Positions 3,048-19,166 of a stretch of 64,000 nucleotides of DNA are shown piece by piece. Every line of letters begins with the position of its first letter. Position 1 is the first letter of the stretch. The stretch lies in the NCBI GenBank assembly GCA_016192135.1, contig JACPUR010000030.1, forward strand, positions 62,001 to 126,000. The letters run 5' to 3'. The position numbers and the translations under genes were made by a program. Source of the DNA: Candidatus Tectomicrobia bacterium (GTDB lineage Bacteria > UBA8248). The notes below the pieces were generated by a model that worked only from the letters and a program-made list of their open reading frames with translations, searched no databases and was not told the origin of the DNA.

Positions 3048-4310
3048 TCACGCCCGCACCCGCCGTATCGCCGCCGCCGAGACGAGCCGCGTCGCGGCCA
3101 TGAGGAGGAAGACCCAGAGCCAGCCGTTCGGGGCGAGCGAGAGCCACCCGAAGATCCAGGCCTGGGCCGCCGCATAGGCGTATCCGTGGAACGAGAGGAG
3201 GCCCGCCGCCGTCCCGGCGAGCCGCCGCCCCGCCAGGTCCACCGCCAGGGCGGGCACGGGCGCCAGGTTGATGGCGAACCCCCCCGTGATGAGGAAGAAG
3301 GCGGCCAGGGGCGCCGAGTGCGCCGGGCTCAGCGCCACCCCCGCGATGGCCGAGGCGCTGGCCAGGGAGGCCGCCACGATGACGGGGGATCGGTTGCCCT
3401 TGAAGATGCGGTCCGAGAGGAAGCCCCCGGCGAGGGGGCCCAGCATGAGCCCCACCGGGTAGGCGAAGGTCACGAGGGCCATGCCCTTGAGGTCGAAGCC
3501 CCCCATCTGGGCGTAGTAGACCGGCACCCAGGAAACCATGCCGTAGCGCGCCAGGGTGTCGAGTCCCCGCACGTGGCAGGCGATCTGGAAGCGCCAGTTC
3601 CCCAGGAGCAGGAGGTAGGCGCCGAGGCCGCGCCCGCCCGCCTCGGAGGCCTCCTCGGCGGCGCGCGAAACCTCGGAGGGCTCGGCGTACTCGGGGAACC
3701 CCGCCTCGGAGGGCCGGTCGCGGACGGCGGGGTAGAAGAGCACCCCCGCCAGCGCGAGGGCCAGGGGCGGCCAGCGCAGGGCGGCCCGCCAGCCCCAGGC
3801 CGAGGCCACCCAGGGCGCCACCATCCAGACCATGAGGAGGGCCGTCCCCGCGGCGGCGCTCGCCGCGCCGATGGCGCGCCCGCGCTCCTGCCGGGGCCAC
3901 CACTGGGTGATGAGGCCCAGGCCGGGGGACCAGGCGGCCGAGCTCATGAAGCCGGCCGCGGCCCATAGGGCGAATAGGCCCGCGACCGTCCCGGCGTAGC
4001 TGGCCAGGACGTTCAGCAGGGCCGTCCCCAGGGCCCCCAGGAGGATGACGCGGCGGAAGCCCGCGCGCTCGGCGATGCGCCCCCACGCCAATCCGCCCAG
4101 GGCGAAGCCCCAGAACATGCCCGAGTTGACCCAGCCCGTCTCGGCCTGGGTAACGGCCATGTCCTCGATGACGGCGGGCTGCACCAGGCTGAAGTTGAAC
4201 CGCCCCAGGTAGTTGAAGGAGTAGAAGGCGAAGTAGGCGATGAGGACGCGCCACTTCCAGCGGTGGTAGGCGGGGGGGAGGTCGGCGTAGGCGACCTGCG
4301 CGGGGCTCAC
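3048..4310 (-). CDS. MFS transporter, second of a tandem pair
   Basis: A 420-aa, 12-helix major facilitator superfamily transporter. The N-terminal YFAFYSFNYLGRFNFSLVQP segment resembles the first helix of organophosphate/phosphate antiporters (GlpT/UhpT type). The loop RIAERAGFRR between helices 2 and 3 is the MFS signature, and a longer cytoplasmic loop near residues 195-230 separates the two halves. It is closely similar along its length to the protein at 4318-5607 and starts 7 bp after that gene stops, so this is a tandem duplication with probable translational coupling. The substrate cannot be read from sequence; an anionic organic solute is the best guess. Confidence 0.9.
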   Translation of the reverse strand: MSPAQVAYADLPPAYHRWKWRVLIAYFAFYSFNYLGRFNFSLVQPAVIEDMAVTQAETGWVNSGMFWGFALGGLAWGRIAERAGFRRVILLGALGTALLNVLASYAGTVAGLFALWAAAGFMSSAAWSPGLGLITQWWPRQERGRAIGAASAAAGTALLMVWMVAPWVASAWGWRAALRWPPLALALAGVLFYPAVRDRPSEAGFPEYAEPSEVSRAAEEASEAGGRGLGAYLLLLGNWRFQIACHVRGLDTLARYGMVSWVPVYYAQMGGFDLKGMALVTFAYPVGLMLGPLAGGFLSDRIFKGNRSPVIVAASLASASAIAGVALSPAHSAPLAAFFLITGGFAINLAPVPALAVDLAGRRLAGTAAGLLSFHGYAYAAAQAWIFGWLSLAPNGWLWVFLLMAATRLVSAAAIRRVRA

Positions 4311-4317
4311 GCGCTCC

Positions 4318-5607
4318 CTACGCCTTCACCCGCCAGATGGCCGCCGCCGAGATGATCCGCGTCGCGGACATGGCGAGGAAGACCCACATCCAGCCGTTCG
4401 GGGCGGCCAGGGAGAGCCAGCCGAAGAGCCAGGCCTGCAGCGCCCCGTAGATGTAGCCGTGGGCGTCGAGGACACCCGCGGCGGTCCCGGCGAGGCGCCT
4501 CCCGGCCAAGTCCACGGCGAGGGCCTGGATGGGGGTCATATTCACGAAGAAGCCCCCCACCATGAGGAGGATCACCGCCAGCGGGATGCTCGACGCGGGG
4601 CTGAGGGCGATGCCCAGGGTGGCGGCCGCGCTGATGGCGGCGCTGATGACGATGACGGGGGTGCGGTTGCTGTGGAAGAAGCGGTCCGAGAGGATGCCCC
4701 CGGCGATGGGCCCGAAGAGGTAGCCGAGCGGGTAGGCGAAGGTGAGCCAGCCCATCTCCTGGAGGGTGAAGCCCCCCACCTGGGCGTAGTAGACGGGCGC
4801 CCAGGAGACGATGCCATAGCGCACCACGTTGTCGAGCCCCTTCACGTGGCAGGCGATGAAGAAGCGCCAGTTGCCCAGAAGGTGGAGGTAGGCGCGGAGG
4901 CCGTTCTCGCTCGCGCCGCCCGAGGCCTCGGCGTCGCGGGAGACCTGATCGGCTTCGCGGTACTCGGGCAGGCCCAGCTCGGCGGGCTTGTCGCGCACGC
5001 TGAGGTAGAAGAGGACGCCCGTCACCGTGAGCAGGAGCGGCGGGTAGCGCAGCGCCGCCCGCCAGCCCCAGTGGGCCGCCACCCAGGGCGTCACCGCCCA
5101 GACCACCAGCAGGGCGATCCCGGCCGAGGTCCCCACCCAGCCGATGGCCTTCCCGCGGTCGCGCCTCGGCCACCACTGGGCCACGATGCCCAGCCCCGGC
5201 CCCCATGCCGAGGCGTTCACGAAGCCCACGAGGGCCCAGGGGACGGCGAGGGAGGGGATGGTGTCCCCGAAGCTGGCCAGGACGTTGAAGACGCTGGTCC
5301 CCACCGCGCCCGCGAGGATGAGGTTGCGGAAGCCGATCTTCTCCCCGAGGCGCCCGTGCACGAGGTCGCCTAGGGCGAAGCCCCAGAACATCCAGGAGTT
5401 GATCCAGCCGGTGTCGGCCCGGGTGATGCCCAGGTCCTCGATGACGGCGGCCTGGACCAGGCTGAAGTTGAAGCGCCCGAGGTAGTTCGTGACGTAGAAG
5501 AGGCAGAAAGCCACGAGCACCCGCCACTTCCAGCGATGATAGAGGGCCGGGAGCTCCCCGTAGTCCACCTGCTGGCCCGGGAGGGGGGAGGCGGCGGGGG
5601 TGGTCAT
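4318..5607 (-). CDS. MFS transporter, first of a tandem pair
   Basis: A 429-aa MFS permease with 12 predicted helices. The N-terminal FCLFYVTNYLGRFNFSLVQ and the HGRLGEKIGFRN loop match its downstream paralogue. The start at 5607 (MTTPAASPLPG) is chosen because GAGGA lies about 8 nt upstream; a reading frame open further upstream would begin inside repeat DNA. The protein ends SATRIISAAAIWRVKA, nearly the same as the paralogue's end (ATRLVSAAAIRRVRA). Recent duplicates kept side by side suggest either different substrates or a heteromeric pair, as in some nitrate and sugar-phosphate MFS pairs. That last point is inference. Confidence 0.9.
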   Translation of the reverse strand: MTTPAASPLPGQQVDYGELPALYHRWKWRVLVAFCLFYVTNYLGRFNFSLVQAAVIEDLGITRADTGWINSWMFWGFALGDLVHGRLGEKIGFRNLILAGAVGTSVFNVLASFGDTIPSLAVPWALVGFVNASAWGPGLGIVAQWWPRRDRGKAIGWVGTSAGIALLVVWAVTPWVAAHWGWRAALRYPPLLLTVTGVLFYLSVRDKPAELGLPEYREADQVSRDAEASGGASENGLRAYLHLLGNWRFFIACHVKGLDNVVRYGIVSWAPVYYAQVGGFTLQEMGWLTFAYPLGYLFGPIAGGILSDRFFHSNRTPVIVISAAISAAATLGIALSPASSIPLAVILLMVGGFFVNMTPIQALAVDLAGRRLAGTAAGVLDAHGYIYGALQAWLFGWLSLAAPNGWMWVFLAMSATRIISAAAIWRVKA

Positions 5608-5640
5608 GCGTTCATTCCTCGCCCTCGGGGAATTCAAAAT

Positions 5641-5771
5641 GCAGGGGCGCACGGCCGTGCGCCCCTACGGATCATATGCCGGAACGAATTGTTGCAAGGG
5701 CGTATGGCAATATGCCCCTACGGAACCACCGCGACGGCCATCCGTAGCGGCGGTTCGCGAACCGCCCCTAC
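5641..5771. repeat. Three-copy array of the GTAGGGGCG palindrome
   Basis: Copies lie at 5641-5668 (core CACGGCCGTG), 5694-5721 (core near TATGGCAATA) and 5744-5771 (core GTTCGCGAAC). Each is about 28 bp with arms G(T/C)AGGGGCG and CGCCCCTAC. The copies start 53 and 50 bp apart. They fill most of the gap between the AAA+ ATPase gene and the MFS pair. Confidence 0.85.
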
Positions 5772-5814
5772 AAAAACGGACGCGCAAACATCCGCGATGG
5801 GATCGCAAAATGCC

Positions 5815-7323
5815 CTATTTCAGCAAATCCGACACGCCGGCCGAGGTGGCGAAGGCGGCGTCCCCCTCCTCGAAGCCCACGAAGTAGCTCTCGCAGGCCC
5901 TGAGGAGGAGGTCCTTCGTCATCTCGGGCGTCTTCTCCTCGAACTTGGCCAGGTCGATCAGGTGGTCGAGCAGGTCGCGGGGGTGGCAGGCGGTGAAGGG
6001 CCGCTTCCGCGCCTCGTAGACCTCCTTGATGAGGTCGTTGTAGACGTCCTCGCGGAATTCGATGCCCTTGCCCTTGCAGCTGCGCTCGAAGTTCTCGCGG
6101 AAGCCCTCTCGGTCCAGGGGCCCGATGAAGAGCTTGTGGCAGAGCCGGCGCATGAAGGCCTCGTCGAGGAGGTCCTTCGGGTTGATGTTCGTGCTGAAGA
6201 TGACGAGCTGGTCGAAGGGCATCTGCACCTTGTTGCCCGTGTGGAGGGTGAGGAAGTCCACCCGGTTCTCGAGGGGCACGATCCAGCGGTTGAGGAGGTC
6301 GCGCGGCCGCACGAGCTGGCGCCCGAAGTCGTCCAGGATGAAGATGCCGTTGTTCGACTTCACGTGGGGCGGGGCCTCGTAGGTGCCCGAGTGCGGGTCC
6401 ATCTGGAGTTCCATGGTCTGGAGCGTGAGCTCGCCGCCCACGACCACGACGGGGCGCTTGCAGCGCAGCCAGCGCTTGTCCTCGGGCTGGGGGCCCTCGT
6501 CCAGGCGGTGGACCGAGGGGTCGTAGAGCCGGACGACGAAGCCGTCCACCTCGATGGCCTTGGGGATGGCGATGGCCCCGCCGAGCAGGGAGGAGAGGGC
6601 CACCGCGATGGCGGTCTTCCCGTTCCCCGGGGGGCCGTAGAGGAAGATGGTGCGCCCCGAGTTCACGGCGGGCCCCAGCGGCTTGAAGAGCCGGTCGCTC
6701 ACCACGAGGTGGGAGAGGGCCTTCCGGAGCGACTCGATGTTCACCTGCACGCCCAGCACCGTCTGCTTCTGGACCATCTTGACGTAGGTGGTCATGGGGA
6801 CGGGGATGGCGCCCATGTAGCCGCTCAGGCGCATGTACTCGCGGGCGCGGTTGCGGCCCTCGCTCGTCATCACGTAGCGCCGGGTGGTCGAGGCGTAGCC
6901 GGCCGCGGAGGCCACCTCCATGCACTTGAGGTTGCGCCACTCCTCCAGCAGGTCGTTCGTGATCTTGACGGGGAGGCAGAGCTGCTCCGCCGCCTCGTTC
7001 ACCGTGAAGGTGTCGAGGATGGCCACCGTCTTGAGGACGTGGGGCATGAGGAAGTCCGGGCGGATGCCCAGGTCCTCCACGCTGCGGGGCTCGCCCAGGC
7101 TGAGGGGGTCGTAGTCCCCGGCGGGGGCCTCCTTGCCGTCCTTGCCCGGGGGCGCCGCCTGGGGCTCCCGGGGCTTGAGGAGGCTCGGCGCCGCGGCCGG
7201 AGCGGATCCGGCGGGCGGGGCGGGAGCCGCCGGCGGGGCGGGCGCGGCGGTGGCGGCGGGCGCCTCGGGCTTCTTCTGCTCGGGGTCTTCGGCCGCGGTC
7301 TTGAGCCGGTCGAGGATGCTCAT
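5815..7323 (-). CDS. AAA+ ATPase with N-terminal winged-helix-like region
   Basis: A 502-aa protein. Residues 20-68 are an Ala/Pro-rich linker. Residues 90-165 look like a winged helix (TVNEAAEQLCLP, RRYVMTSEGRNRAREYM). An AAA+ ATPase domain follows, with Walker A GPPGNGKTA at about 230-238, Walker B IFILDDFG near 325, and the sensor-1-like IFSTNINP. The start at 7323 is set by GGAGG 7 nt upstream; a longer frame lacks any such signal. It lies 55 bp downstream of tyrS on the same strand. The family is soluble and has no obvious substrate domain, so it may act as a remodelling ATPase. Function is not known to me. Confidence 0.88.
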   Translation of the reverse strand: MSILDRLKTAAEDPEQKKPEAPAATAAPAPPAAPAPPAGSAPAAAPSLLKPREPQAAPPGKDGKEAPAGDYDPLSLGEPRSVEDLGIRPDFLMPHVLKTVAILDTFTVNEAAEQLCLPVKITNDLLEEWRNLKCMEVASAAGYASTTRRYVMTSEGRNRAREYMRLSGYMGAIPVPMTTYVKMVQKQTVLGVQVNIESLRKALSHLVVSDRLFKPLGPAVNSGRTIFLYGPPGNGKTAIAVALSSLLGGAIAIPKAIEVDGFVVRLYDPSVHRLDEGPQPEDKRWLRCKRPVVVVGGELTLQTMELQMDPHSGTYEAPPHVKSNNGIFILDDFGRQLVRPRDLLNRWIVPLENRVDFLTLHTGNKVQMPFDQLVIFSTNINPKDLLDEAFMRRLCHKLFIGPLDREGFRENFERSCKGKGIEFREDVYNDLIKEVYEARKRPFTACHPRDLLDHLIDLAKFEEKTPEMTKDLLLRACESYFVGFEEGDAAFATSAGVSDLLK

Positions 7324-7378
7324 GCGCTTTCCTCCGCGAAACGGATGCGGGCGCCGTGCGGGGCCCGCTCCAGGAGGC

Positions 7379-8641
7379 CTAGGGTTGCCGGAATTGCACC
7401 AGATGATAGTTCTTTTTCCCCTTCCGCAAAAGGACGTATTTGCCGAAGAGGAGGTCATTCCGAGACAGCGCCGCGCCTTCTTCCCCGATGCGGCGGTTGT
7501 TCACGTAGACGCCCCCGCCCTGGATGTCCTTCCGCGCCATCCCCTTCGAGGAAGACAGCTGGGTCTCGACCAGGGCGTCCACCAGGGGAAGGGGGAGGGC
7601 GCCCCCGCGCTCCGTCCGGGGCATCTCCTCGGCGGCGGCCAGGAGGTCCCCCTCCCGGATGCCCTCGAGCTCCCCGCCGAAGAGGATCATGGACGCCTTC
7701 GCGGCGCTCCGGGCGGCTTCCTCTCCATGCGCCAGCGAGGTCATCTCGCGCGCGAGGCGCCGCTGGCCCTCGCGCTTCTCGGGCGCGGCCAGGTGGACGT
7801 GCTCGATCTCCTCGATCTCCTCAACGGACATGAAGGAGAAATACTTGAGGAAGCGGCCCACATCCGGGTCCGCCGTCTGCATCCAGTACTGGTAGAAGCG
7901 GTAGGGGCTGGTGCGGGCCGGGTCGAGCCAGACGTTCCCCGCCTCGGTCTTCCCGAACTTGCGGCCGTCCGAGGTGGTGATGAGGGGGAAGGTGAGGCCG
8001 AAGGCGGGCTTCCCCCGCACCCGGCGGATGAGCTCGATGCCGGCCGTGATGTTCCCCCACTGGTCCGAGCCCCCGATCTGGAGGGCGCAGCCCTCGGCGT
8101 CGTGGAGGTGGAGGAAGTCGCAGGCCTGGAGGAGCATGTAGCTGAACTCGGTGTAGGAGATGCCCGCCCCCGCGACGCGCGCCTTGACCGACTCCTTCGC
8201 CTCCATATAGGCCACGGTGAAGTGCTTGCCCACGTCCCGCAGGAAGTCCACGAGGCTCATCCGCGCCAGCCAGTCGGCGTTGTTGACGAGCTTGGCTCTG
8301 CCCGCGCCGAAGTCGAGGAAGCGCCCGAGCTGGGCCCGGATGCCCTCGACGTTCCGCTCCAGCGCCGCGCGGCCGAGGAGGTTGCGCTCCTCGCTCTTGC
8401 CCGAGGGGTCGCCGATCATTCCCGTCGCTCCCCCCACCAGGGCGATGGGGCGGTGGCCCGCCCGCTGGAAGCGCATGAGGCCCGCGATGGGCATGAGGCT
8501 CCCGACGTGGAGGCTGTCCGAGGTGGGGTCGAAGCCGCAGTAGAGGGTCATCCCCCCGGCCTCGAGCGCCTGGCGGAACTCGGGCTGGTCCGTGAAGTCG
8601 TGCACCAGGCCCCGCGCCTGGAGGTCTTGAAGGAAGGTCAT
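7379..8641 (-). CDS. tyrS: Tyrosyl-tRNA synthetase
   Basis: A 420-aa class I aminoacyl-tRNA synthetase that charges tRNA-Tyr in the cytoplasm. The HIGH-type motif appears as SDSLHVGSL near residue 45. The KMSKS-type loop appears as KFGKTEAG near 232, the same form as in the E. coli enzyme. The tyrosine pocket signature YMLLQACDFLHLH is present. The C-terminal S4-like RNA-binding domain is KDIQGGGVYVNNRRIGE onward, ending near residue 418. Length is normal for the bacterial TyrS type. It is transcribed divergently from the MoxR-like operon, across a 403-bp gap packed with palindromes. Confidence 0.98.
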   Translation of the reverse strand: MTFLQDLQARGLVHDFTDQPEFRQALEAGGMTLYCGFDPTSDSLHVGSLMPIAGLMRFQRAGHRPIALVGGATGMIGDPSGKSEERNLLGRAALERNVEGIRAQLGRFLDFGAGRAKLVNNADWLARMSLVDFLRDVGKHFTVAYMEAKESVKARVAGAGISYTEFSYMLLQACDFLHLHDAEGCALQIGGSDQWGNITAGIELIRRVRGKPAFGLTFPLITTSDGRKFGKTEAGNVWLDPARTSPYRFYQYWMQTADPDVGRFLKYFSFMSVEEIEEIEHVHLAAPEKREGQRRLAREMTSLAHGEEAARSAAKASMILFGGELEGIREGDLLAAAEEMPRTERGGALPLPLVDALVETQLSSSKGMARKDIQGGGVYVNNRRIGEEGAALSRNDLLFGKYVLLRKGKKNYHLVQFRQP

Positions 8642-8670
8642 CGAATCTTCCCCGTCTGACGGTCTCGTCT

Positions 8671-8994
8671 GCAGGGCGGGTTTGAAACCCGCCCCTGCAC
8701 ACCCATTTCGCGCCGCGTGGTCGGTAGGGGCGAGGCATGCCTCGCCCCTACAACGACCGTCGCCGCGCCGCCTGATCCGTAGGGGCGGTTCGCGAACCGC
8801 CCCTACAACAAAACCGTACCCTGCCGCCCGATCTGCAGGGGCGCATGGCCATACGCCCCTGCAAAATAATGTCCGACATATATATCAGGGGAAGGGGAAT
8901 CGCCCAACAGGATGGGGTCGAGTCAGCCGTAGGGGCAGGCCCCCGTGCCTGCCCCCCTTCCCCAACCGGGGCGGCCACGGGGGACCGCCCCTAC
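8671..8994. repeat. Five-copy regularly spaced array of the GTAGGGGCG palindrome
   Basis: Copies are at 8671-8698 (core GGTTTGAAACC), 8724-8751 (AGGCATGCCT), 8779-8806 (GTTCGCGAAC), 8835-8862 (near CATGGCCATA) and a long compound copy at 8929-8994. The first four start 53, 55 and 56 bp apart, separated by 25-28 bp of differing sequence. The array fills the divergent gap between tyrS and the MoxR-like gene. Apart from the promoter at its right end, nothing else is visible in this gap. Confidence 0.88.
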
Positions 8995-8997
8995 GGG

Positions 8998-9006
8998 TGC
9001 TATAAT
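8998..9006 (+). promoter_or_regulatory. Extended -10 promoter (TGCTATAAT) of the MoxR-like operon
   Basis: A perfect TATAAT at 9001-9006 is preceded by TGC, giving an extended -10 element. No recognisable -35 exists because the region upstream is the compound palindrome ending at 8994. Transcription would start near 9013, about 32 nt before the TTG start codon. Confidence 0.65.
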
Positions 9007-9044
9007 GGGCGAAGGCCGCATTTTCACACACAAGGAGCCCTCCC

Positions 9045-10001
9045 TTGCACCTAGACGCCAAGGACGCCGCCCGGGCCGTAGAAGTCCAGGGCGTGACGCT
9101 CCACCTGAGCCAGCCCACCGACCCCAGCCAGGAGTGGATCGGCCAGCGGGAGGTCCTCCGCCAGCTCCAGGCCTGCTGGCTCGTGGTGGCCGAGGAGGAT
9201 TTGCCCCTGGCCCCCCGCATCGTGGGCCCCCCGGGCATCGGGAAGACCACCCTCGCCATGGCCGCCGCGCGGGAGCGGGGGCAGGAGCTCTACATCTTCC
9301 AGTGCACGGCCGACACCCGGCCCGAGGACCTCCTCGTCACCCCCGTCCTCTCCGAGGGGGGGAAGATCGCCTACCACGCCTCCCCTCTCGTCACCGCCAT
9401 GCTGCGGGGCGGGGTGTGCGTGCTGGACGAGGGGAACCGCATGAGCGAGAAGAGCTGGGCCTCCCTCGCGCCGCTCCTGGACCACCGGCGCTACGTCGAG
9501 TCCATCGTGGCGGGCATCACCGTGGGCGCCCGGGACGAGTTCCGCTGCTGCGTCACCATGAACGAGGACGCCTCGACCTACGAGGTGCCCGACTACATCC
9601 TCTCCCGCCTCCAGCCCACCCTCGAGGTGGAGTTCCCGCAGCGCGAGGACGAGCTGGCCATCCTCCAGTACCACTTGCCCTTCGCCCCGGCCGAGATGCT
9701 CGCGCTCACGGTGGACTTCCTCCAGGAGGCCCACGCCTTGGACCTCGACTACTCCCCCCGGGACGGCCTCCACATCCTCCAGTACGCCTTGAAGCGCATG
9801 GCCCAGGACCCCAAGCACCCCCTCGGGCAGGACGAGGCCTGGCGCGAGTCGCTGGTCAAGGTGCTGGGGGACGAGGCGCTCGACCTCCGCGGCCTCGCCC
9901 GCCGCCGCCGGCAGGCCCTCGGCGAGGAGCTGCCCCCCATGGACTTCGGGGACTACCTCTTCGGCGGGGAGAGCCCCCTGAACCCGGGCCGCGATCGCTG
10001 A
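9045..10001 (+). CDS. MoxR-like AAA+ ATPase
   Basis: A 318-aa AAA+ ATPase. Walker [10 protein letters not shown] is at residues 61-69 and Walker [12 protein letters not shown] at about 123-133. The sensor-1 region [24 protein letters not shown] is typical of MoxR/CbbQ-type ATPases that work with a partner protein. Translation starts at TTG, with GGAG 7 nt upstream. The gene at 10006 starts 4 bp after it stops, so the two are co-expressed. MoxR ATPases usually act as chaperones that remodel or activate a von Willebrand factor A (VWA) protein or metalloenzyme. The partner here carries no recognisable VWA domain, which makes the pair unusual. Confidence 0.9.
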
Positions 10002-10005
10002 CCCC

Positions 10006-12063
10006 ATGAGCCCCGGCGGTTCCAAGCGAGCCAGCGAAAGGGAGGACTTCCTCTCCCTCTCCCCGCGCATCCGCGTCATCCCGGTGGTGCACGCCTCGGG
10101 GGACTTCGCCCAGGAGGCCCGCGACCGCCTGCTCCGCCTGGAGCCGGACTGCCTCGCGGTGCCCCTCCCGCCCTCTTTTGAGGAATCTGTGGAGGCGGGG
10201 GTGGAGGCGCTTCCCCGCGTCTCCCTGGCCGCCGCCCGGGAGGAGGAGGGCGCCTGGTCCAGGGAGTGGGAGCGGGAGGACGAGGAGGAAGAGAGTGGGG
10301 AAGGGGAAGGGGAGGAGGACGCCCCCGATCTCCCCGCCTTCAACTACGTCCCCGTCGACCCCTGCCAGGCGGTGGTCGCGGCGCTCCGGACGGCGATGGG
10401 GGAGCGCATCCCCCGCGCCTGGGTGGACCTTGAGGTCGCGGCCTACGACCCGGAGTCCCACCTCCTGCCCGACCCCTACGCGCTCAAGAAGGTGCCCCTC
10501 GACGCCTTCGCGGCGGCGCTCCTCCCGGCCTCGCCCCCTCCCGCGCCCGGCAGCCAGCGCGAGGCCCGGGTGCGCTGGATGGCGTCGCGGCTCCGCGCGC
10601 TGGAGAGGGACCACAAGAAGATCGCCTTCCTCTGCCACGCCCTGGACTGGCCCTGGGTGAGGCAGGCCTATCTCACGAACCTGCCCGCGCCGGAGGAAGA
10701 AGCGTCGCCCCCCCGCGTCCGGCTCTACGAGGTGGAGGCGGGGACGCTCGCCTTCCTCCTGGGGGAGCTCCCCTTCGTCACCTCGCTCTACGAGAGGCGC
10801 CGGGAGGAGCTGCGCGGGGACCGCCACCTCTCCCTCGACGGGGTGAAGGAGCTCCTCCTGGAGGCGCGCGCGGCCTGGCTCGCCGAGCACAACCCCGTCC
10901 ACAACTGGGTCACGCCCCAGCGGCTCCAGGTCTTTCTCCAGTACGTCCGCAACCTCACCCTCCAGACCCGGCGGCTCACCCCGGACCTCTTCACCCTGGT
11001 GGTGGCCGCCAAGCAGTGCGCCGGGGACGCCTTCGCCCTCTGCCTGGCCGAGACGGCGAGGAAGTATCCGTACCAAGACCCCCCCCCTCAATCCCCCCCT
11101 TATGAAGGGGGGGAAGGGAAAGGCCCGGCCCGCCGTTCGGGGAGGCAGGATTTTGATTCCCCCCCTGATCAAGGGGGGGGCAGGGGGGGTGAGGAAGAAG
11201 GCGCCTGGAACGCGGTGCGCATGGGCATCGGCAAGGCCGAGTTCCCGGAGGGCGATGTCGGCGGGATGAAGAACAGGCTCGGCGGGAGCCCCGTCTCCTG
11301 GCGCAACATCTCCTTGAAGCCCAAGCCCCGGCCCTTCGAGAAGCGCAAGTGGGCCCAGCGCTGGGACCCCTACGGCATGTGCTCCTGGCCCCCCGAGGAC
11401 ACGAAGATCGAGAGCTTCCACACCCACGTCCGCGAGCAGGCCAAGGCCCTCCTCGGGGAGGACCTCGCCCGCACCGAGAAGTTCACCGTCTCGATCAAGG
11501 ACGGCCTCGACATGCGCGAGACCCTGCGCAACTGGCACACCGGGGATTTGTACGTGAAGGAGATCCCCCCGGCGCGCGGGAGCGTGGAGGTGGTCGTCTT
11601 CCTCTTCGAGAGCCCGGCCGATCCCGATAAGTATTCCTGGCGCACCATGTGGTACGCCGAGCACGAGGAGGAGTCCACCCTCTGCATGTACGCCACCCCC
11701 TTCGAGGGGAACATGGTGGGGCCCGGCATCGCCGAGAGCCAGTACGGGGGCGCCTTCTTCCTCTTTCCTCCGCGCCACCTCCCCGACGTCTGGCGCGACC
11801 CCCGGCTCGCCTTCACCGAGACCCTCGAGGAGCGCCTCATCGCCGGCGCCTGCCTCCACTCCCGGGAGAAGAGCGTCGCCCTCGTCTCCCCGCGTCCCCC
11901 CCTCGCCCGCTGGCGCCAAATCGCCCGCGTTTTGAAGCGGCACCTCATCTACCTCCCGCTCGGGCGCTTCTCGGGCGAGACCATCGCGCGGGTGCGGAGG
12001 TTCCACGTGCTGAACGGAAGGCACGTGAGGAGCTACGCGGCGCGGTTTATACGGGAGATGTGA
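10006..12063 (+). CDS. Uncharacterised 685-aa partner of the MoxR-like ATPase
   Basis: I do not recognise this protein with certainty. The N-terminal 60 residues (IRVIPVVHASGDFAQEARDR, LRLEPDCLAVPLPPSF) resemble the opening of TraB/DUF5682-like proteins found beside MoxR ATPases. Residues 78-108 are strongly acidic (many EEE and DEEEE). A basic helical middle follows, with RVRWMASRLRALERDHKK and QFLQYVRNLTLQTRRLTPD-like segments. The last 300 residues (DPYGMCSWPPEDTKIESFHTHV, NWHTGDLYVKEIPP) look like a compact, well-conserved domain. At about residues 358-396 an in-frame GC-rich repeat encodes low-complexity Pro/Gly sequence. The protein is probably the substrate or adaptor of the upstream ATPase, judging by operon position alone. 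Confidence 0.75.
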   Translation: MSPGGSKRASEREDFLSLSPRIRVIPVVHASGDFAQEARDRLLRLEPDCLAVPLPPSFEESVEAGVEALPRVSLAAAREEEGAWSREWEREDEEEESGEGEGEEDAPDLPAFNYVPVDPCQAVVAALRTAMGERIPRAWVDLEVAAYDPESHLLPDPYALKKVPLDAFAAALLPASPPPAPGSQREARVRWMASRLRALERDHKKIAFLCHALDWPWVRQAYLTNLPAPEEEASPPRVRLYEVEAGTLAFLLGELPFVTSLYERRREELRGDRHLSLDGVKELLLEARAAWLAEHNPVHNWVTPQRLQVFLQYVRNLTLQTRRLTPDLFTLVVAAKQCAGDAFALCLAETARKYPYQDPPPQSPPYEGGEGKGPARRSGRQDFDSPPDQGGGRGGEEEGAWNAVRMGIGKAEFPEGDVGGMKNRLGGSPVSWRNISLKPKPRPFEKRKWAQRWDPYGMCSWPPEDTKIESFHTHVREQAKALLGEDLARTEKFTVSIKDGLDMRETLRNWHTGDLYVKEIPPARGSVEVVVFLFESPADPDKYSWRTMWYAEHEEESTLCMYATPFEGNMVGPGIAESQYGGAFFLFPPRHLPDVWRDPRLAFTETLEERLIAGACLHSREKSVALVSPRPPLARWRQIARVLKRHLIYLPLGRFSGETIARVRRFHVLNGRHVRSYAARFIREM
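11079..11190. repeat. CCCCCCT/AGGGGGG inverted-repeat pair inside a coding region
   Basis: Two short hairpins, one built on CCCCCCCTTATGAAGGGGGGG and one on CCCCCCTGATCAAGGGGGG (each sequence overlaps the next bases slightly), face each other about 55 bp apart. The block is translated in frame as a Pro/Gly-rich insert in the 685-aa protein. It looks like a repeat insertion that kept the reading frame. Confidence 0.7.
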
Positions 12064-12075
12064 GGGGGTCTGGAT

Positions 12076-12170
12076 GTCATTCCGAGCCCTTCGCTTCGCT
12101 TAGGACAGGCGCAGCGAGGAATCTTCCCGCGCGTCCGCTAGCGTAGACCTCTCGCTGCGCTCGGGGTGAC
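12076..12170. repeat. GTCATTCCGAG inverted repeat element, intact copy 1
   Basis: It begins GTCATTCCGAG and ends with the near-complement CTCGGGGTGAC; an inner GAGGAATCTTCC follows the left arm. It starts 12 bp after the stop codon of the 685-aa protein. The rest of the 348-bp gap up to 12411 holds only a decayed palindrome near 12200 and a possible -10 TACAAT at 12304-12309. Confidence 0.7.
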
Positions 12171-12411
12171 AACCTTAAGGTGGTTTTGGTCTATAGGGTG
12201 AAACCCGCCCCTGCGAATTGCGAATCCCCCACCAGACCCGGACCTCTTCCTCCCGAAACAAGAACTTAACAAGATAGATACAGCGCCGAAAAGAAAGCCG
12301 GGTTACAATGAACGCGTGGGGATGCCCCGGCGGTCCGGTGCCGGAGGATCCCCAGTGGCGGCCGCCGAGACTTCAAACGAGCGCAGTCCGTCCCGTGAAA
12401 GGAGCCATCCG

Positions 12412-12684
12412 ATGATCGCCGAGCCCGTCCAAATCGTGTGGAAGGTGACCGAGCCCACGCAAGGGCTGAGCCGCGATCAAGTCTGGAGGATGGCGGTCCG
12501 CACCCGGGGGAACCTGGAGCTGACCCGCTTTCTCGACGCGATGGAGCTGGATGGCGCCTGCGACGTCGTGGTGACCGACGCGCAGGGCCGGGAAACCCTC
12601 TTCCACTGCGGGCTTCCCTCCGGCCACCTGGCCGAAACGGGCGATACGGCTTCCGGCGCGCTGTCGGCCTCCGCCGCCCAGTAG
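12412..12684 (+). CDS. Small uncharacterised protein (90 aa)
   Basis: A 90-aa cytoplasmic protein beginning MIAEPVQIVWKVTEPTQGLS. The ATG at 12412 is chosen because AAAGGAG lies 8 nt upstream; the longer open frame has no such signal. No signal peptide or membrane helix is seen. The centre (LELTRFLDAMELDGACDVVVTDAQGR) suggests an alpha/beta fold, and the C-terminus (GDTASGALSASAAQ) is low-complexity. I do not recognise a family. It stands alone between two repeat-rich gaps, with a possible TACAAT -10 element about 100 bp upstream. Confidence 0.6.
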   Translation: MIAEPVQIVWKVTEPTQGLSRDQVWRMAVRTRGNLELTRFLDAMELDGACDVVVTDAQGRETLFHCGLPSGHLAETGDTASGALSASAAQ

Positions 12685-12709
12685 CGCCGATCTGTGGCGA
12701 CCCTGGTCT

Positions 12710-12976
12710 GTAGGGGCGGCCGGCCGGTCGCCCCTACGAATTTGGCCAAGGGATGGTGCCCCGGTTTTCCCTCTCCCCTTGGGAGAGGGGGCCTGCCCCT
12801 GCATCGTCTCTTGCGGCGCTTTTTGTAGGGGCGGCCCCCTGTGGCCGCCCGTTGGTTTGGGGGCGGGCACGGGGGCCCGCCCCTACGTCGTCTTATGGCG
12901 ATCCTGGTCTGTAGGGGCGGGTCTGAGACCCGCCCCTACGTACTCATGCGCCATCATCCGGTGCAATGCCCCTACG
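12710..12976. repeat. Palindrome cluster with one CCCTCTCCC repeat
   Basis: GTAGGGGCG palindromes lie at 12710-12737 (core GCCGGCCGGT), 12825-12886 (long compound form) and 12911-12939 (core GGTCTGAGACC), with a right half-copy at about 12959-12976. The flanks 5' of the first and third simple copies are themselves alike (GGCGAYCCTGGTCT). A CCCTCTCCCC/GGGAGAGGGG hairpin sits at about 12769-12791. Together these occupy the 371-bp gap. Confidence 0.8.
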
Positions 12977-12993
12977 AATTCCCCGCCCGCCCG

Positions 12994-13002
12994 TGCTACC
13001 AT
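12994..13002 (+). promoter_or_regulatory. Possible extended -10 element (TGCTACCAT)
   Basis: TGC is followed by TACCAT, four matches to TATAAT, 54 bp before the TTG start of the MDMPI-like gene. No good -35 is visible. It follows the same TGCTA pattern as several other candidate promoters in the window. Confidence 0.35.
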
Positions 13003-13055
13003 CCCCCTCTCGCATGTCCTTCACCGCATCCGTCTGACCCAGGGGAGGCACCGTC

Positions 13056-13880
13056 TTGGACTACGTGCCCGAGCTTCACGCCACCGTCGCGGCCATCGGC
13101 CGGGAGTTCCGCCGCTTGGCAGGCTGGTTCCGCACCTTCGGGGAGGAGGACTGGAAGCGGCCCTCCTACTGCCCGGGCTGGAACGCCGCCAAGGTGGTGG
13201 GCCACATGGCCTTCGGGGGCGCCTTCTTCGCCTCCTCGGTGCGGAACGCGCTCAAGGGCGACCTGGGTTTTCCGCTCGGGGCCAAGGACCAGGCCGAGTT
13301 CATGCGCATCCGGGAGGACATGGCCCAGGAAATCGCGGATCTCTCGCCGGAGCGGCTCATCGAGCGCTTCGAGCTGAACACCGGGGACGTGTACGGCCTT
13401 TTTTCGACCCTGAAGCCCGGGGACTTCGAGCGGCCCACCTGGCACCGGCGGGGGGTGTTCCCGGTGCGGCGGCTGGTCATCTCGCGCCTGAACGAGCTCC
13501 TGCTCCACGAGTGGGACATCTGGAACGAGCCCGGGCGCGCCATGACGCAGCAGCCCATCGGCACCGCGGCCGGGAACCTGCGCCAGCACTTCCCGCTCTT
13601 CTACGAGCTGAGCCCGGCCGAGGGGCTCTCGGGCACCTTCGCCTTCCGCCTCACCGACGGCAAGAAGTGGGCCATGCGGGTGGAGGGCAAGAAGGCGCAA
13701 GATTTGGGACTGGGCGAGCACAGGGCCGATGTGACGATCTCCGCCACCGGGAGCGACATGCTCCTCCTCGCCACCGGCCGGGGCCCGGTCGAGGAGAGGC
13801 GGAAAGAGGGCCGGTTCACCGTCGAGGGGGACGAGAAGAAGGCCCAGGCCCTCATCCCCAAATTGTTCTTCCCGCTGTGA
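13056..13880 (+). CDS. Maleylpyruvate isomerase/DinB-like family protein with SCP2-like C-terminus
   Basis: A 274-aa protein. Residues 1-165 match the mycothiol-dependent maleylpyruvate isomerase N-terminal (MDMPI/DinB) fold: WFRTFGEEDWKRPSYCPGWNAAKVVGHMAFG near 23-53, and the late histidine LLLHEWDIW near 150. Those histidines are the usual metal ligands of DinB-like proteins. Residues 180-274 resemble a sterol-carrier-like (SCP2) domain (GTFAFRLTDGKKWAMRVEGKKAQDL, ISATGSDMLLLATGR). Translation starts at TTG with GGGGAGG 7 nt before it. In other bacteria such proteins are thiol-dependent isomerases or transferases; the substrate here is unknown. The gene is monocistronic. Confidence 0.82.
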   Translation: MDYVPELHATVAAIGREFRRLAGWFRTFGEEDWKRPSYCPGWNAAKVVGHMAFGGAFFASSVRNALKGDLGFPLGAKDQAEFMRIREDMAQEIADLSPERLIERFELNTGDVYGLFSTLKPGDFERPTWHRRGVFPVRRLVISRLNELLLHEWDIWNEPGRAMTQQPIGTAAGNLRQHFPLFYELSPAEGLSGTFAFRLTDGKKWAMRVEGKKAQDLGLGEHRADVTISATGSDMLLLATGRGPVEERRKEGRFTVEGDEKKAQALIPKLFFPL

Positions 13881-13907
13881 TGATATGGGGAACGGCGCCG
13901 CATTTTT

Positions 13908-14127
13908 GTAGGGGCGTATTGCAATACGCCCCTACGGGCGGATGCGGCCACGGGTTTTGCAGGATGCATGGCATGCGCCCCCGCGCCCAATCAGATGCAC
14001 CGCGTGTTTTGTAGAGGCGGTTCGCGAACCGCCCCTACGGGACCATCGTGACAGGATATTCGTAGGGGCGGCCCCCTGTGTCCGCCCCCCCTGTGCGGAT
14101 GGGGCAGGCACAGGGGCCTGCCCCTAC
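13908..14127. repeat. Four-copy regularly spaced array of the GTAGGGGCG palindrome
   Basis: Copies start at 13908 (core TATTGCAATA), 13959 (decayed copy), 14011 (core GTTCGCGAAC) and 14062 (long compound form to 14127), which is 51, 52 and 51 bp apart. They account for most of the 332-bp gap between the two neighbouring genes. Confidence 0.85.
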
Positions 14128-14212
14128 GGATCAAACCCCCGTTTCCCGCCCATCCGATCCTCCGATATATTTCCTTTTTAGCACCCGGTTTCCCCACGAC
14201 AGGAGGCGCCCC

Positions 14213-14599
14213 ATGCCCGCCACGGCCAAGGGACAGGAACTGCTGGACAAGATGATGCAGGCGCGCGGCTTCGTCTGGCCCGCCTTCGAGCTCCTGTGCG
14301 AGATGGACCCCGAGCTCATCGAGCACTACGAGGGGATGAAGAACTACGTCCTGGGCAAGAAGCAGGAGATGCCCGAGCACCTGCGGGAGACCTTCATCTC
14401 GGTGGCCATCGCGGTGCGCCACCCGGCCGACACCGAGGGGCTCAAGGAGCACGTCAAGCGCGCCCTCAAGCTGGGGGCCGCGCCGAGGCAGGTGCTCGAG
14501 GCCTTCGAGTCGATCTTCCCCCCGTGCGGGATGATGGTCCTCATCGCGGGCTGCAACGCCCTCAAGCGCTCCATGGACGAGCTGGGCCTCAAGGCGTGA
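14213..14599 (+). CDS. Carboxymuconolactone decarboxylase (AhpD-like fold) family protein
   Basis: A 128-aa helical protein of the CMD/AhpD superfamily. The family core is visible as LRETFISVAIAVRHPADTEGLKEHVKRALKLGAAPRQVLEAFE at residues 60-102. The catalytic CxxC of peroxidase-type members (AhpD) is absent: the corresponding position reads VRHPAD. It therefore resembles the decarboxylase branch, or a non-redox member. The ATG has AGGAGG 5 nt upstream. The chromate-transporter genes start 4 bp after it stops, so they probably share a transcript. Substrate unknown. Confidence 0.85.
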   Translation: MPATAKGQELLDKMMQARGFVWPAFELLCEMDPELIEHYEGMKNYVLGKKQEMPEHLRETFISVAIAVRHPADTEGLKEHVKRALKLGAAPRQVLEAFESIFPPCGMMVLIAGCNALKRSMDELGLKA

Positions 14600-14603
14600 G
14601 CCC

Positions 14604-15176
14604 TTGCCGCCCGGCGACATCCGCCCCGTGAACGCGCCCGCGGAGCGCCCCGGCCCCGGCCGGATCGCCTGGACCTTCCTCCGGCTGGGGGCCTTCGCCT
14701 TCGGGGGCCTGGGCGGGGCCCTCGCGCTCCTCGAGCGCGAGCTGGTCGAGAGGCGGGGCTGGGTCTCGCGGCGGGACTTCGGCGAGGCCCTCGCCCTCAC
14801 CAAGCCCCTCCCCGGCTCGACCATGGTGCAGGTGGCGGCCTACCTGGGCGCGCGGCTGGGCGGCTGGCCGGGGGCGCTCGCCGCCGCGCTCGCCTTCGTC
14901 GCCCCGGCCGCCTGCCTCATGACGGCGGCGGCGGCCCTCACGGCGTCGCTGCCGGACGCCCCCTGGGCCCGGGGGGCGCTGGCCGGCGTCCAACTCGCGG
15001 TGGCGGGCCTCCTCGCCTCGGCCATGTGGAGGCTGGCCCGCAGCGAGGCGCGGGGGAGGAGGCTCACCCTCGTCCTCCTCGCGGCGTGCGCCCTGGGGTT
15101 CTTCGCTCCGGCCGCGCTCGTGGTGGCCGGGGCGGGGGCGGCGGGGGTGCTGGCCGAGGGGACGCGGGATGCTTGA
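14604..15176 (+). CDS. chrA: Chromate transporter (CHR family), first half-size subunit
   Basis: A 190-aa membrane protein equal to one CHR domain, with TTG start. Hallmarks are FLRLGAFAFGGLGGALALLERELVERRGWVS near residues 20-50, followed by F..ALALTKPLPGSTMVQVAAYLG. Long ChrA proteins carry two such domains in tandem. Here they are separate genes that overlap by 8 bp (next gene at 15169), so the pump is presumably a heterodimer of two inverted halves. CHR proteins export chromate or act on sulfate-like anions at the inner membrane. No chrB-type regulator is nearby, so chromate resistance is not assured. Confidence 0.88.
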   Translation: MPPGDIRPVNAPAERPGPGRIAWTFLRLGAFAFGGLGGALALLERELVERRGWVSRRDFGEALALTKPLPGSTMVQVAAYLGARLGGWPGALAAALAFVAPAACLMTAAAALTASLPDAPWARGALAGVQLAVAGLLASAMWRLARSEARGRRLTLVLLAACALGFFAPAALVVAGAGAAGVLAEGTRDA

Positions 15177-15690
15177 GCTCGTCCTCCGCTTCCTGCTCGT
15201 GGGGGCGCTGGCCTTCGGCGGGGGACAGGCCGCCCTCCCCTTGGTCGAGCGGATCGCCGTGGCCGAGACGGGCTGGCTCAGCCCCCGCGACTTCGCCGCG
15301 GGGGTGGGCATCGCCCAGGCCACCCCCGGGCCGGTGCTCATCCTCGCCGCCTTCGTGGGCCACCGCGCGGCGGGGCTCCCCGGGGCGCTCGCGGCCACCC
15401 TGGCCGTCTTCGCCCTGCCGATCCTCCTCGCGGCGCTCGCCGCCCGCATGGCGGAGCGCTGGCGGGGCGGGGCGGCCTTCGAGGCCTTCGGGCGCTTCGC
15501 GGGGGCGGCCGCCATCGGGCTGCTGGGGGTGACCCTCGCCTCGATCGCCTGGCCCCTCGTCCAGGCGCACCCGGCGCTGGCCCTCCTCTCCGCCGCCGTC
15601 TTCCTCGCCGAGCGCGGGGGCGCCTCGCCGATTCTGCTTCTCGCCGGGGCCGCCGCCGCGGGAGGGGCGTGGGGCGCCCTCGCGGGTTGA
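15169..15690 (+). CDS. chrA: Chromate transporter (CHR family), second half-size subunit
   Basis: A 173-aa membrane protein, the partner CHR half. It begins MLELVLRFLLVGALAFGGGQAALPLVERIAV and continues FAAGVGIAQATPGPVLILAAFVGHRAAGLPGALAA, the second-domain version of the same signature with the PGP motif. It overlaps the upstream half by 8 bp in another frame, which guarantees coupled translation. Five or six hydrophobic segments fill the length. The function depends on the partner; the split (short-chain CHR pair) architecture is known in bacteria. Confidence 0.88.
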   Translation: MLELVLRFLLVGALAFGGGQAALPLVERIAVAETGWLSPRDFAAGVGIAQATPGPVLILAAFVGHRAAGLPGALAATLAVFALPILLAALAARMAERWRGGAAFEAFGRFAGAAAIGLLGVTLASIAWPLVQAHPALALLSAAVFLAERGGASPILLLAGAAAAGGAWGALAG

Positions 15691-15699
15691 TGTTACAAT
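15691..15699 (+). promoter_or_regulatory. Extended -10 promoter (TGTTACAAT) before the carbamate kinase gene
   Basis: TACAAT at 15694-15699 is preceded by TGT, an extended -10. It overlaps the end of the upstream chromate-transporter gene and lies 140 bp before the carbamate kinase ATG. No convincing -35 is seen. Confidence 0.5.
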
Positions 15700-15838
15700 C
15701 CGCCTTTGCCCCATCCGCCGCCCGGAAACCGGCCCAAGCCGATCCTCCGCGGAGCATGGCTCCCGCCCGGATGGGCGGGGGGAGAGGGGAGCTTTCCCCC
15801 GGGTGAGGTTTCGGGATGAAACCCTTGAGGACGCACCG

Positions 15839-16801
15839 ATGACGGATCTCCCGCGCCGCCTCCTCGTCGCCATCGGCGGGAACGCCACCCACCCCGGGAA
15901 CATCCGGGGGACGCCCCAGGAGCAGATCGTCATCGCCAAGGCCACGGCGCAGTCCCTGCTCCCCCTCATGGAGCTGGACAACGAGCTGGTCGTCACCCAC
16001 GGCAACGGGCCCGTGGTGGGGAAGATCCACATGCGCATGGCGCTCTCGCGCAAGCGGGTGTCCCCCATGACGCTCGACATCTGCGTGGCCCAGAGCCAGG
16101 GGGGGATCGCCTACCTCCTCATGCAGGCCCTGGAGAACGCCCTGCGCGAGAAGGGGAACCCCCGGCACGTCGTCTGCCTCTTGACCCAGGTCGAGGTGGA
16201 CCCCGGCGACCCCGCCTTCCGGAACCCCACGAAGCCCATCGGCTTCTTCTACGACGAGGCCGAGGCGCGCGCGGCCGGGCGCGAGATGGGCTGGATCATG
16301 CGCGAGGACGCCGGCCGGGGCTGGCGCCAGGTGGTGCCCTCGCCCGAGCCCCGCCACATCGTCGACATCTCCCTCGTGCGGGCGATCATGGAGCATGGGG
16401 ACATCTGCATCGCGGGGGGAGGGGGCGGCATCCCCGTCGTGCGCGGCCCCAAGGGGGAGCGGCGGGGCGTCGAGGCCGTCATCGACAAGGACCTCACCTC
16501 GGCCCTCATGGCCAAGGTGCTGGGCATGGAGGCCTTCCTGATCCTGACCGAGGTCCGGCGCGCCGCCATCCATTGGGGGACCCCCAGGCAGCGCGAGATC
16601 GAGCGCGCCACCCCCGCCCAGATGCGCGCCTGGCAGCGCGAGGGCCACTTCCCCGAGGGGAGCATGGGGCCCAAGGTCGAGGCCGCCTGCCGCTTCGTCG
16701 AGCGGGGGGGCAAGCGCGCCGTCATCGCCCATCTCGAGGAGGCCATCCCCGCCCTGCGGGGGAAGGCGGGCACCCACATCGTGCCCGAGGGGAGCCTGTG
16801 A
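15839..16801 (+). CDS. arcC: Carbamate kinase
   Basis: A 320-aa amino-acid-kinase-fold enzyme that interconverts carbamoyl phosphate plus ADP and carbamate plus ATP. The phosphate-binding start LLVAIGGNATHPGN, the LVVTHGNGPVVGKI motif near residue 45 and the GDICIAGGGGGIPVV motif near 190 are all typical. The ATG at 15839 is chosen over an upstream in-frame ATG because GAGGACG lies just before it and it begins exactly at the family N-terminus. The stop codon overlaps the GTG start of the DUF2877 gene. In E. coli a carbamate kinase and a DUF2877 protein (YbcF/YlbF, AllK/AllH) act together in oxamate/allantoin breakdown. Confidence 0.92.
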   Translation: MTDLPRRLLVAIGGNATHPGNIRGTPQEQIVIAKATAQSLLPLMELDNELVVTHGNGPVVGKIHMRMALSRKRVSPMTLDICVAQSQGGIAYLLMQALENALREKGNPRHVVCLLTQVEVDPGDPAFRNPTKPIGFFYDEAEARAAGREMGWIMREDAGRGWRQVVPSPEPRHIVDISLVRAIMEHGDICIAGGGGGIPVVRGPKGERRGVEAVIDKDLTSALMAKVLGMEAFLILTEVRRAAIHWGTPRQREIERATPAQMRAWQREGHFPEGSMGPKVEAACRFVERGGKRAVIAHLEEAIPALRGKAGTHIVPEGSL

Positions 16802-17766
16802 TCGCCCTGCGCCTCGCCGGAGGGGCCGCGCTGCGCGCCCTGGCCCCGCCCGGGCGCGGGAGCGTCCTCGCCGTCTTCCGCCGGAGCCTCTACCTGGAGC
16901 GATCGGACGGCGCCCTCGCCTGCCTCGGCCCCCCCGCCCTGGGCCCGGGCCCCCTGAACGCGCTGTGCGGTCTCCCCGAGGGCTTCGAGTGGGAGGCCCA
17001 AGGCGTCTCGCCCGGCCTCCCGTTCATGTGCGAGGGCGGGGAGGCCCGCGCCGGGGGCGTCGCCGTCTCGCTGCGGGAGGCGCGGCCGTGGCGGCCGACA
17101 CCGCTTCCCGCCGGCTGGAGCGATGGCCTGGCCGGAGGGCTGGAGGCGCTCGGGCGGGAGGCGAATCCGCCGGCGGAGGGGATGGGGGGAATCATCCCGG
17201 AGCTGATCGGGCCGCCAATCCTTCGCAGGGGCGAGGCATGCCTCGCCCCTACAGACGAGAGCACCCCCTTACGCCGCCTCGCCTGGCCCGCGGCGCGCAT
17301 CCTGGATGCCTGGCTCGCCGGGGCCCTGCGCGGAGAGGCCGGCCCGTCCCCGAAGGAGGCTGAAAACCTCATCGGCCTGGGGCCGGGCCTCACCCCCTCC
17401 GGGGACGACTTCATCGGCGGGATGCTGATCGCCCTGCGCGCCCTCGGGGAGGAGGGAACGGCGGACCGGCTGGCCGGCTGGGCGCTCCCGCTCGCGGCGC
17501 GGCGGACGGGGAAGATCAGCCTCGCCCACCTGGCCTGCGCGGCCGGGGGGGAGGGGAACGCCGCCCTGCACGGGGCCCTGGCCGCGCTCGCCTCGCCGGG
17601 CGCGGAGGGGCTGGCGGAGGCCCTCGCCGCCGTTCACGCCGTCGGCCACACCTCGGGCTGGGACGCCCTGGCGGGGGCGGTGGCGGCCTGCGCGGCGTGG
17701 ACCCGCGGGGCGGCGCGGCGCGGGAGGCCCCGGGGCTTTGAAGGAAGGCGGCCCGCTCCGGTATGA
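16798..17766 (+). CDS. DUF2877 (YlbF/AllH-like) protein containing a repeat insertion
   Basis: A 322-aa protein with GTG start overlapping the carbamate kinase stop. The family signature GLGPGLTPSGDDFIGGMLIAL is at about residues 195-215, and the C-terminal VHAVGHTSGWDALAG is also typical. In E. coli the related AllH is one part of the oxamate carbamoyltransferase AllFGH. The two other parts (FdrA/AllF and YlbE/AllG) are not in this window. Residues 143-152 (RRGEACLAPT) are encoded by a complete copy of the intergenic palindrome at 17225-17252, so part of the middle of the protein is repeat-derived. Confidence 0.85.
   Translation: MIALRLAGGAALRALAPPGRGSVLAVFRRSLYLERSDGALACLGPPALGPGPLNALCGLPEGFEWEAQGVSPGLPFMCEGGEARAGGVAVSLREARPWRPTPLPAGWSDGLAGGLEALGREANPPAEGMGGIIPELIGPPILRRGEACLAPTDESTPLRRLAWPAARILDAWLAGALRGEAGPSPKEAENLIGLGPGLTPSGDDFIGGMLIALRALGEEGTADRLAGWALPLAARRTGKISLAHLACAAGGEGNAALHGALAALASPGAEGLAEALAAVHAVGHTSGWDALAGAVAACAAWTRGAARRGRPRGFEGRRPAPV
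17225..17252. repeat. GTAGGGGCG-type palindrome inside the DUF2877 gene
   Basis: A full 28-bp copy (arms GCAGGGGCG and CGCCCCTAC, core AGGCATGCCT, as at 8724-8751) lies in frame inside coding sequence. It is the only copy in the window well inside a gene. Confidence 0.9.
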
Positions 17767-17767
17767 T
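17738..17767 (+). promoter_or_regulatory. Sigma-70-like promoter of the ketopantoate reductase gene
   Basis: TTGAAG at 17738-17743, an 18-bp spacer, then TATGAT at 17762-17767. It lies in the last codons of the DUF2877 gene, 43 bp before the ATG at 17810. Confidence 0.55.
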
Positions 17768-17809
17768 TCCGGCTCCCGAATCTCGCGAACATTCGATCGG
17801 AGGATGGGC

Positions 17810-19154: not shown

Positions 19155-19166
19155 GGAGCCCCGCCC

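Follow-up and report, generated by a model that had tools for sequence, protein, structure and literature searches.

A MoxR-type ATPase gene and a co-occurring partner gene without a VWA motif in Candidatus Tectomicrobia and several other bacterial phyla

Introduction

The typical partner of a MoxR ATPase is a von Willebrand A (VWA) protein, as one paper sets out (PMC13036017). The same paper describes how, in NorQ-NorD, a finger of the VWA protein enters the ATPase ring while its C-terminus touches the post-sensor-1 loop, and how McrC acts similarly to NorD without a VWA domain (PMC13036017). A stretch of 64,000 nucleotides from Candidatus Tectomicrobia bacterium, hereafter the window, raises the question of what accompanies a MoxR ATPase when a VWA protein does not. 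An initial annotation of the window had described such an ATPase beside a protein of 685 residues, with a TraB/DUF5682-like start, an acidic stretch and a conserved C-terminus of some 300 residues that could not be assigned. We have followed up this pair through its sequence relatives, its distribution and predicted structures of the partner.

Results

The two open reading frames and the ATPase family

Both genes were confirmed as open ORFs on the plus strand. The ATPase ORF (318 aa) begins with TTG, and its start codon is uncertain; the partner ORF (685 aa) has an ATG start four bases past the ATPase stop codon. The features of the locus, with the evidence for each, are as follows.

9045..10001, plus strand: MoxR-type AAA+ ATPase (AAA_5), member of the "pair" MoxR clade (Pfam, PDB sequences, tree)
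10006..12063, plus strand: 685-aa partner, cognate of the ATPase (ORF, comparison of loci, co-occurrence)
10066..11373, plus strand: partner residues 21-456, aligned with DUF5682/YehM, with a predicted TraB/ChaN-like fold in about residues 15-227 (hhalign, model)
10255..10335, plus strand: acidic stretch of low model confidence, partner residues about 84-110, variable and absent in some lineages (alignment, model)
11080..11190, no strand assigned: C/G-rich palindromic insert, in frame, partner residues about 359-395, not part of the module (alignment)
11323..12060, plus strand: C-terminal domain of the partner, residues 440-685, without a VWA MIDAS motif or a fold assignment (alignment, model, motif count)
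11467..11565, plus strand: partner residues about 488-520 (EKFT.SIKDG.D.RETLRNWHTGD), candidate ATPase-contacting segment (conservation, low model confidence)

A congener keeps both genes (94% identity for the ATPase, 81% for the partner), and so do loci titled as other phyla (about 55-73% and 32-54%, respectively); we therefore regard both ORFs as real genes. The ATPase scored above the Pfam cut-offs for PF07728 AAA_5 (E 7.6e-20, 71.8 bits, cut-off 22) and PF07726 AAA_3 (E 7.9e-7, 29.5 bits, cut-off 27). In its translation we take GPPGIGKTT to be the Walker A and VCVLDEGNR the Walker B motif, and a segment fitting the MoxR helix-2 insert hairpin is visible by eye only. Among PDB sequences the ATPase matched midasin over residues 59-151 (1.1e-22), NorQ over nearly its whole length (residues 40-284, E 4.5e-11) and CbbQ (E 4.5e-9), and blastp to YehL reached only E 3. 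For the partner, Pfam, NCBIfam and PADLOC searched to E 1 and PDB sequences searched to E 5 yielded nothing, and a pattern search of the ORFs in window 1-20000 revealed no VWA-type motif. The pair fitted no PADLOC model of a known anti-phage defence system, the ATPase giving only P-loop-sized matches at E 0.011 or worse.

An ATPase tree of 64 rows was built from 27 pair ATPases, two solo ATPases, 12 YehL, two CbbQ/NorQ, RavA, two haloarchaeal sequences and 18 paralogues, with 16 rows picked among 55 full-length ones for lineage cover. The pair and solo ATPases formed one clade (SH-aLRT 99), separate from YehL and from CbbQ/NorQ, and the two solo ATPases nested within the pair members; the tree is a quick one with several long branches, and the order among subfamilies is unsure.

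Distribution and co-inheritance of the pair

The partner was present in 17 of the 61 genomes sampled around the window (15 at E 0.001, the distant G022 and the genome of the window itself). Among them are 16 of the 18 genomes of the window's own family, a figure that the broader sample described below reproduced. When a 15-row partner alignment (A1) was run against GTDB r220, with one genome taken for each species, 73 partner loci were found. Their record titles name Nitrospinota/Nitrospina, Tectomicrobia, Nitrospirae, Planctomycetota, Gemmatimonadota, Latescibacterota and Fibrobacterota/Chitinispirillia; a single short locus carries the title Alphaproteobacteria, and the carriers include the cultured Singulisphaera acidiphila (Planctomycetota, L059). 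The figure of 73 is a lower bound, since the scan did not contain a pair from Neochlamydia sp. S13 (Chlamydiota) that is more remote (54% and 25% identical) and is annotated as "AAA family ATPase" and "hypothetical protein". This pair lies on a plasmid and provided the one plasmid relative of the partner; phage relatives were not found. A far relative, G116 (L248), has a 36%-identical ATPase and a partner that matches the profile over the N-terminal part only, and the C-terminus has therefore evolved faster or been replaced there.

The initial annotation had asked whether the two genes are always adjacent. In 61 of the 73 named partner loci the ATPase gene immediately precedes the partner on its strand, and in 49 of the 54 pairs for which an intergenic gap was computed the gap measured -38 to +81 bases. 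In eight of the other 12 loci the contig breaks off inside the partner match or no more than 200 bases upstream of it, which leaves four (L056, L067, L101 and L115) where the ATPase is not adjacent and no contig end intervenes. The genomes of these four encode a cognate ATPase elsewhere (64-76% identity, the match being partial in two). The partner of L115 lacks its middle and that of L101 its N-terminal part, which counts against the pairing model. The ATPase match in the L101 genome itself covers only residues 10-187.

Presence and absence were then counted in a broader sample of 386 genomes, using a 56-row partner profile (A2) and an ATPase limit of E 1e-30 or better, set after paralogues had been seen to score no better than about 1e-10. 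The partner was found in 34 genomes, the cognate ATPase in 34 and both in 32. With the window's family set aside, the remaining 368 genomes gave counts of 18, 19 and 17, where independence predicts about one joint occurrence, bearing in mind that the genomes are related and hence are not independent events. The two partner-only genomes are G010, which is 70% complete and has its partner cut by a contig end, and G492, where the match runs from contig base 2. The two ATPase-only genomes, G292 and G429, showed no partner in the 12-15 kb around the ATPase or by genome search, and they count against obligate pairing.

Both genes are present yet unlinked in eight genomes, namely G272, G407, G461, G481 and those of the four loci above; in the single-contig genomes G272 and G407 they stand 2.6 Mb and 0.4 Mb apart. 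Adjacency is hence the rule across the named loci and is not universal. In G096 and G404 the two genes are probably adjacent, because they lie near the ends of different contigs and the ATPase contig of G096 ends with a piece weakly matching the start of the partner. In G272 (L251) the partner sits about 0.7 kb from a different MoxR gene, and an ORF bearing a VWA-like motif lies with them in one 18-kb stretch; this too counts against the pairing model, since the partner may be paired differently in that genome. No third gene family recurred beside the pair in more than three of nine lineage groups, once clusters overlying the pair in other frames had been set aside by coordinates.

The eight unlinked genomes are what one would cite for a conserved chromosomal neighbourhood of two genes with separate jobs. 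We hold that reading to be very improbable, as a genome keeps both genes even where they are unlinked, and across the sample they are jointly present or absent. The co-occurrence of the ATPase and its partner is near-obligate and the genes are generally co-linear, in keeping with the earlier proposal that the two belong together.

The N-terminal half of the partner is related to DUF5682/YehM

The window partner did not match DUF5682 (PF18934) up to E 1, and thus stayed below the gathering score of 26 bits, and DUF5682 was the only Pfam match in four of eight distant members, at a sub-threshold 13-15 bits. Profile comparison revealed the relationship more clearly. When the 56 partners of A2 (that of the window plus those of 55 of the 73 loci, selected as full-length and free of breaks or masking in the frame) were aligned by hhalign with 27 DUF5682 proteins hand-picked from 46 loci (A3), partner residues 21-456 matched at 96.1% (E 2.9e-9, score 83.3). 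Reversed columns gave 0.1% (score 17.3) and 20 column shuffles at most 9.0% (score 35.2); an enlarged partner set of 73 rows raised the match to 97.6% (E 3.2e-12). By these profiles the first 435 or so residues of the partner are a distant relative of DUF5682/YehM.

The predicted model of the whole partner (pLDDT 81.3, pTM 0.76) suggested a TraB/ChaN-like fold in part of this region. Residues 7-227 resembled ChaN 2g5g (Z 8.2, 151 aligned residues, 4.8 A), residues 14-276 HopBA1 (Z 6.8) and residues 1-227 a Tetrahymena complex IV subunit (Z 10-11), and Foldseek alone returned no significant row from the PDB. The DUF5682-like start that had been proposed is borne out by profile, and its TraB-like character is suggested by the predicted fold. 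The match to DUF5682 is remote, and to an uncharacterised family; no paper mentioning DUF5682 was found in a literature search conducted mostly without subscription journals.

Divergent partners keep an H...E...GxxH pattern that we take to be TraB-like. Of 73 proteins (the 56 of A2 and 17 added), 67 retain the H at window position 29, nine the E at position 53 and 13 the H at position 214. Since the latter two positions are so rarely kept, the window's clade seems to have lost a catalytic site here.

Two other features of this half vary among lineages or genomes. The acidic stretch is real, as annotated; it is lineage-specific, being gapped out in the Nitrospina-type L045. The C/G-rich insert, about 110 bases long and partly palindromic, is absent from 14 aligned relatives, and other parts of the genome hold short pieces of it at 83-87%. 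When the window was searched for the insert by a pattern composed by hand, the matches were barely above chance, and this line was dropped.

Separately, proteins of about 900 aa in L184 (G166), G154, G157, G163, G169 and G171 match DUF5682 in part, in several genomes as two separate pieces, and L184 has YehP- and YehL-like genes in the same stretch.

A conserved C-terminal domain without a VWA MIDAS motif

The C-terminal alignment (A5, 69 rows) has a mean column identity of 63%, against 46% for the whole of A2, and a near-constant RRFHVLNG lies close to the end of the protein. E552 and H667 are identical in all 73 partners, position 535 at a strand end is acidic in 72, and a segment of low model confidence around residues 488-520 holds the invariant residues E491, F493, S496, D499, G500, R504 and R508. 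The domain showed no relationship to DUF5682 (0.7% over 40 columns at the start of A5, and 0.2% with the enlarged set). Its separate model (pLDDT 81.4, pTM 0.71) had no significant match among PDB folds, the best aligned rows reaching Z 3.2 or less, and none among viral structures. The claim of a conserved and unassignable C-terminus therefore stands, with neither profile nor fold searches yielding a confident match.

The DxSxS signature of the VWA MIDAS motif is absent from the C-terminal part of all 73 partners, the pattern occurring five times in their N-terminal half. By hhalign, with and without 17 added partner sequences, the domain matched YehP-type VWA proteins at 0.3-0.9%, values that 15 shuffles also gave, reaching up to 1.4%; the comparison set held 17 of the 18 YehP-type proteins found, one cut by a contig end being left out. 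At the level of loci, a VWA-like motif was seen in the ORFs of one locus among the 98 that encode the partner or its ATPase, compared with 19 of the 24 control loci, the pattern being not fully sensitive, as it missed five controls including the NorD type. The partner is accordingly one in which no VWA domain was found, as the initial annotation had stated. The result which that annotation had named as refuting its proposal, a confident match to VWA or to a DUF5682 family of established function, was not obtained.

A rival reading takes the C-terminal domain for a VWA domain that has diverged past recognition, having lost DxSxS and helix 1 yet still docking on the ring, so that the locus would be a MoxR-VWA pair fused to a YehM-like half. 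By eye, the stretch "GIDIRETLRNWHTGDIYVKE...VVVFLFD" resembles "IDW.RTIRANL...P...ILCVD" of YehP, the residue after that strand is acidic in 72 of 73 partners, and E. coli yehLMPQ has MoxR, DUF5682 and VWA genes side by side. No VWA chain appeared among the listed PDB rows for either model, an outcome with which a VWA fold is still compatible. The hhalign result within the shuffle range and the missing DxSxS speak against this origin, as does the predicted strand order. A VWA topology has a helix after the first strand, whereas the C-terminal model runs strand-strand-strand with no helix there. On balance we consider a degenerate VWA domain unlikely.

Could the partner instead be an enzyme, with a TraB/EreA-type hydrolase at its N-terminus or an RNase-H-type nuclease-like domain at its C-terminus? 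In its favour are the conserved polar residues E552, H667 and acidic 535, and the TraB-like pattern kept by divergent members. Most of the best C-terminal fold rows are RNase-H-like proteins (creatinase N-domain, integrase core, Argonaute, RuvX and Kae1); as all rows have Z 3.2 or less, such a fold is only a hint. Activation by the ATPase would then proceed as in McrB-McrC, a finger-in-pore AAA+ system whose partner has no VWA domain (PMC13036017). Against an enzyme, the main clade has lost two of the three TraB-like positions, the C-terminal fold rows fall below any trust level, and the PADLOC families match no further than P-loop-sized hits. We judge an ATPase-activated enzyme distinctly unlikely.

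A link to RNase T2 was also considered and discarded. Weak hmmscan matches to Ribonuclease_T2 occurred in 22 of the 69 C-terminal sequences (best E 3.1e-4), and of six members searched singly two matched, over 37-41 residues and below the cut-off; we judged these to be chance.

Other genes in the window

The initial annotation had also placed a second, different AAA+ ATPase at 5815-7323 and hinted that it belonged to the pair system. The ORF exists, being open over 5815-7458 with an internal ATG near 7323; its membership did not hold up, and the candidate third component was rejected, as it stands beside the pair in none of the six g5 genomes whose loci reach TyrRS. It was seen in three of the 73 named loci, many such loci being short. 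The second AAA+ goes with TyrRS and not with the pair. With its N-terminal extension it occupies window 5815-8641 on the minus strand, beside TyrRS and divergent from the pair, and the same TyrRS-AAA+ arrangement persists in three genera sampled from the window's family.

Elsewhere, an ORF at window 34621-35577 (plus strand), with the sequence GEIHDNPIHH, resembles a haem-binding protein of the ChaN type, a fold class to which the N-terminus of the partner also shows resemblance. A low-GC island at 35500-38999 (about 48-55% against about 69%) encodes a 588-aa protein at 36976-38742, preceded by a 313-aa ORF, and looks horizontally acquired; we take the 588-aa protein to have a P-loop/SMC look, and the island is perhaps a defence operon.

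Discussion

The comparison with known systems places the pair near several of them. E. coli carries yehL, yehM, yehP and yehQ in a row (MoxR, DUF5682-type, VWA and SWIM), and of 18 sampled loci in which YehM was matched, 16 also have a YehP-type VWA gene. The pair resembles yehLMPQ in having a MoxR ATPase beside a DUF5682/YehM-type protein, to which the N-terminal 435 or so residues of the partner are homologous by profile. It differs in that pair loci were found without a VWA gene nearby, in that its ATPase belongs to a clade separate from YehL, and in that the partner has a C-terminal domain without a match in DUF5682. The two-gene layout recalls NorQ-NorD and CbbQ-CbbO, and the ATPase is similar to NorQ over nearly its whole length, but the partner lacks the VWA MIDAS motif and the ATPases fall in separate clades. 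RavA-ViaA likewise joins a MoxR ATPase to a dedicated partner gene next to it, whereas ViaA has the VWA motif (L206) and RavA stands apart in the tree, at the end of a very long branch. McrB-McrC offers an AAA+ ring with a partner that has no VWA domain (PMC13036017), although the present partner has no match to McrC or a nuclease family.

Because the pair is co-inherited across phyla and its partner lacks the usual adaptor domain, it looks like an unstudied variant of a known remodelling machine. We think it probable that the two proteins form one ATP-driven protein-remodelling machine of the MoxR kind, in which the partner is a dedicated adaptor replacing the VWA protein. The ATPase would form a hexameric ring and the partner would bind it in a physical complex, its TraB/DUF5682-like N-terminal half and C-terminal domain taking the place that VWA has in NorQ-NorD, CbbQ-CbbO and RavA-ViaA. 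By analogy with NorQ-NorD and McrC, the conserved and poorly ordered segment 488-520, the conserved C-terminus, or both, may contact and engage the ring. ATP hydrolysis would then move the partner, and a client complex would be opened or matured through a putative chaperone activity.

A wider proposal, which we put forward tentatively as somewhat short of probable, is that the pair represents a new MoxR branch, in which a TraB/DUF5682-derived half is fused to a non-VWA, ring-engaging C-terminal module, and that it serves in Nitrospinota and a number of further phyla as a housekeeping assembly factor, either ancient or spread widely by transfer. If the adaptor reading is correct, a MoxR clade without VWA extends over several phyla, and its ring would couple to clients in another way, which would make it a natural comparison for asking which parts of NorD or CbbO are essential. 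The pair also links the YehM/DUF5682 family with a simpler relative of only two genes, which the cultured Singulisphaera acidiphila carries.
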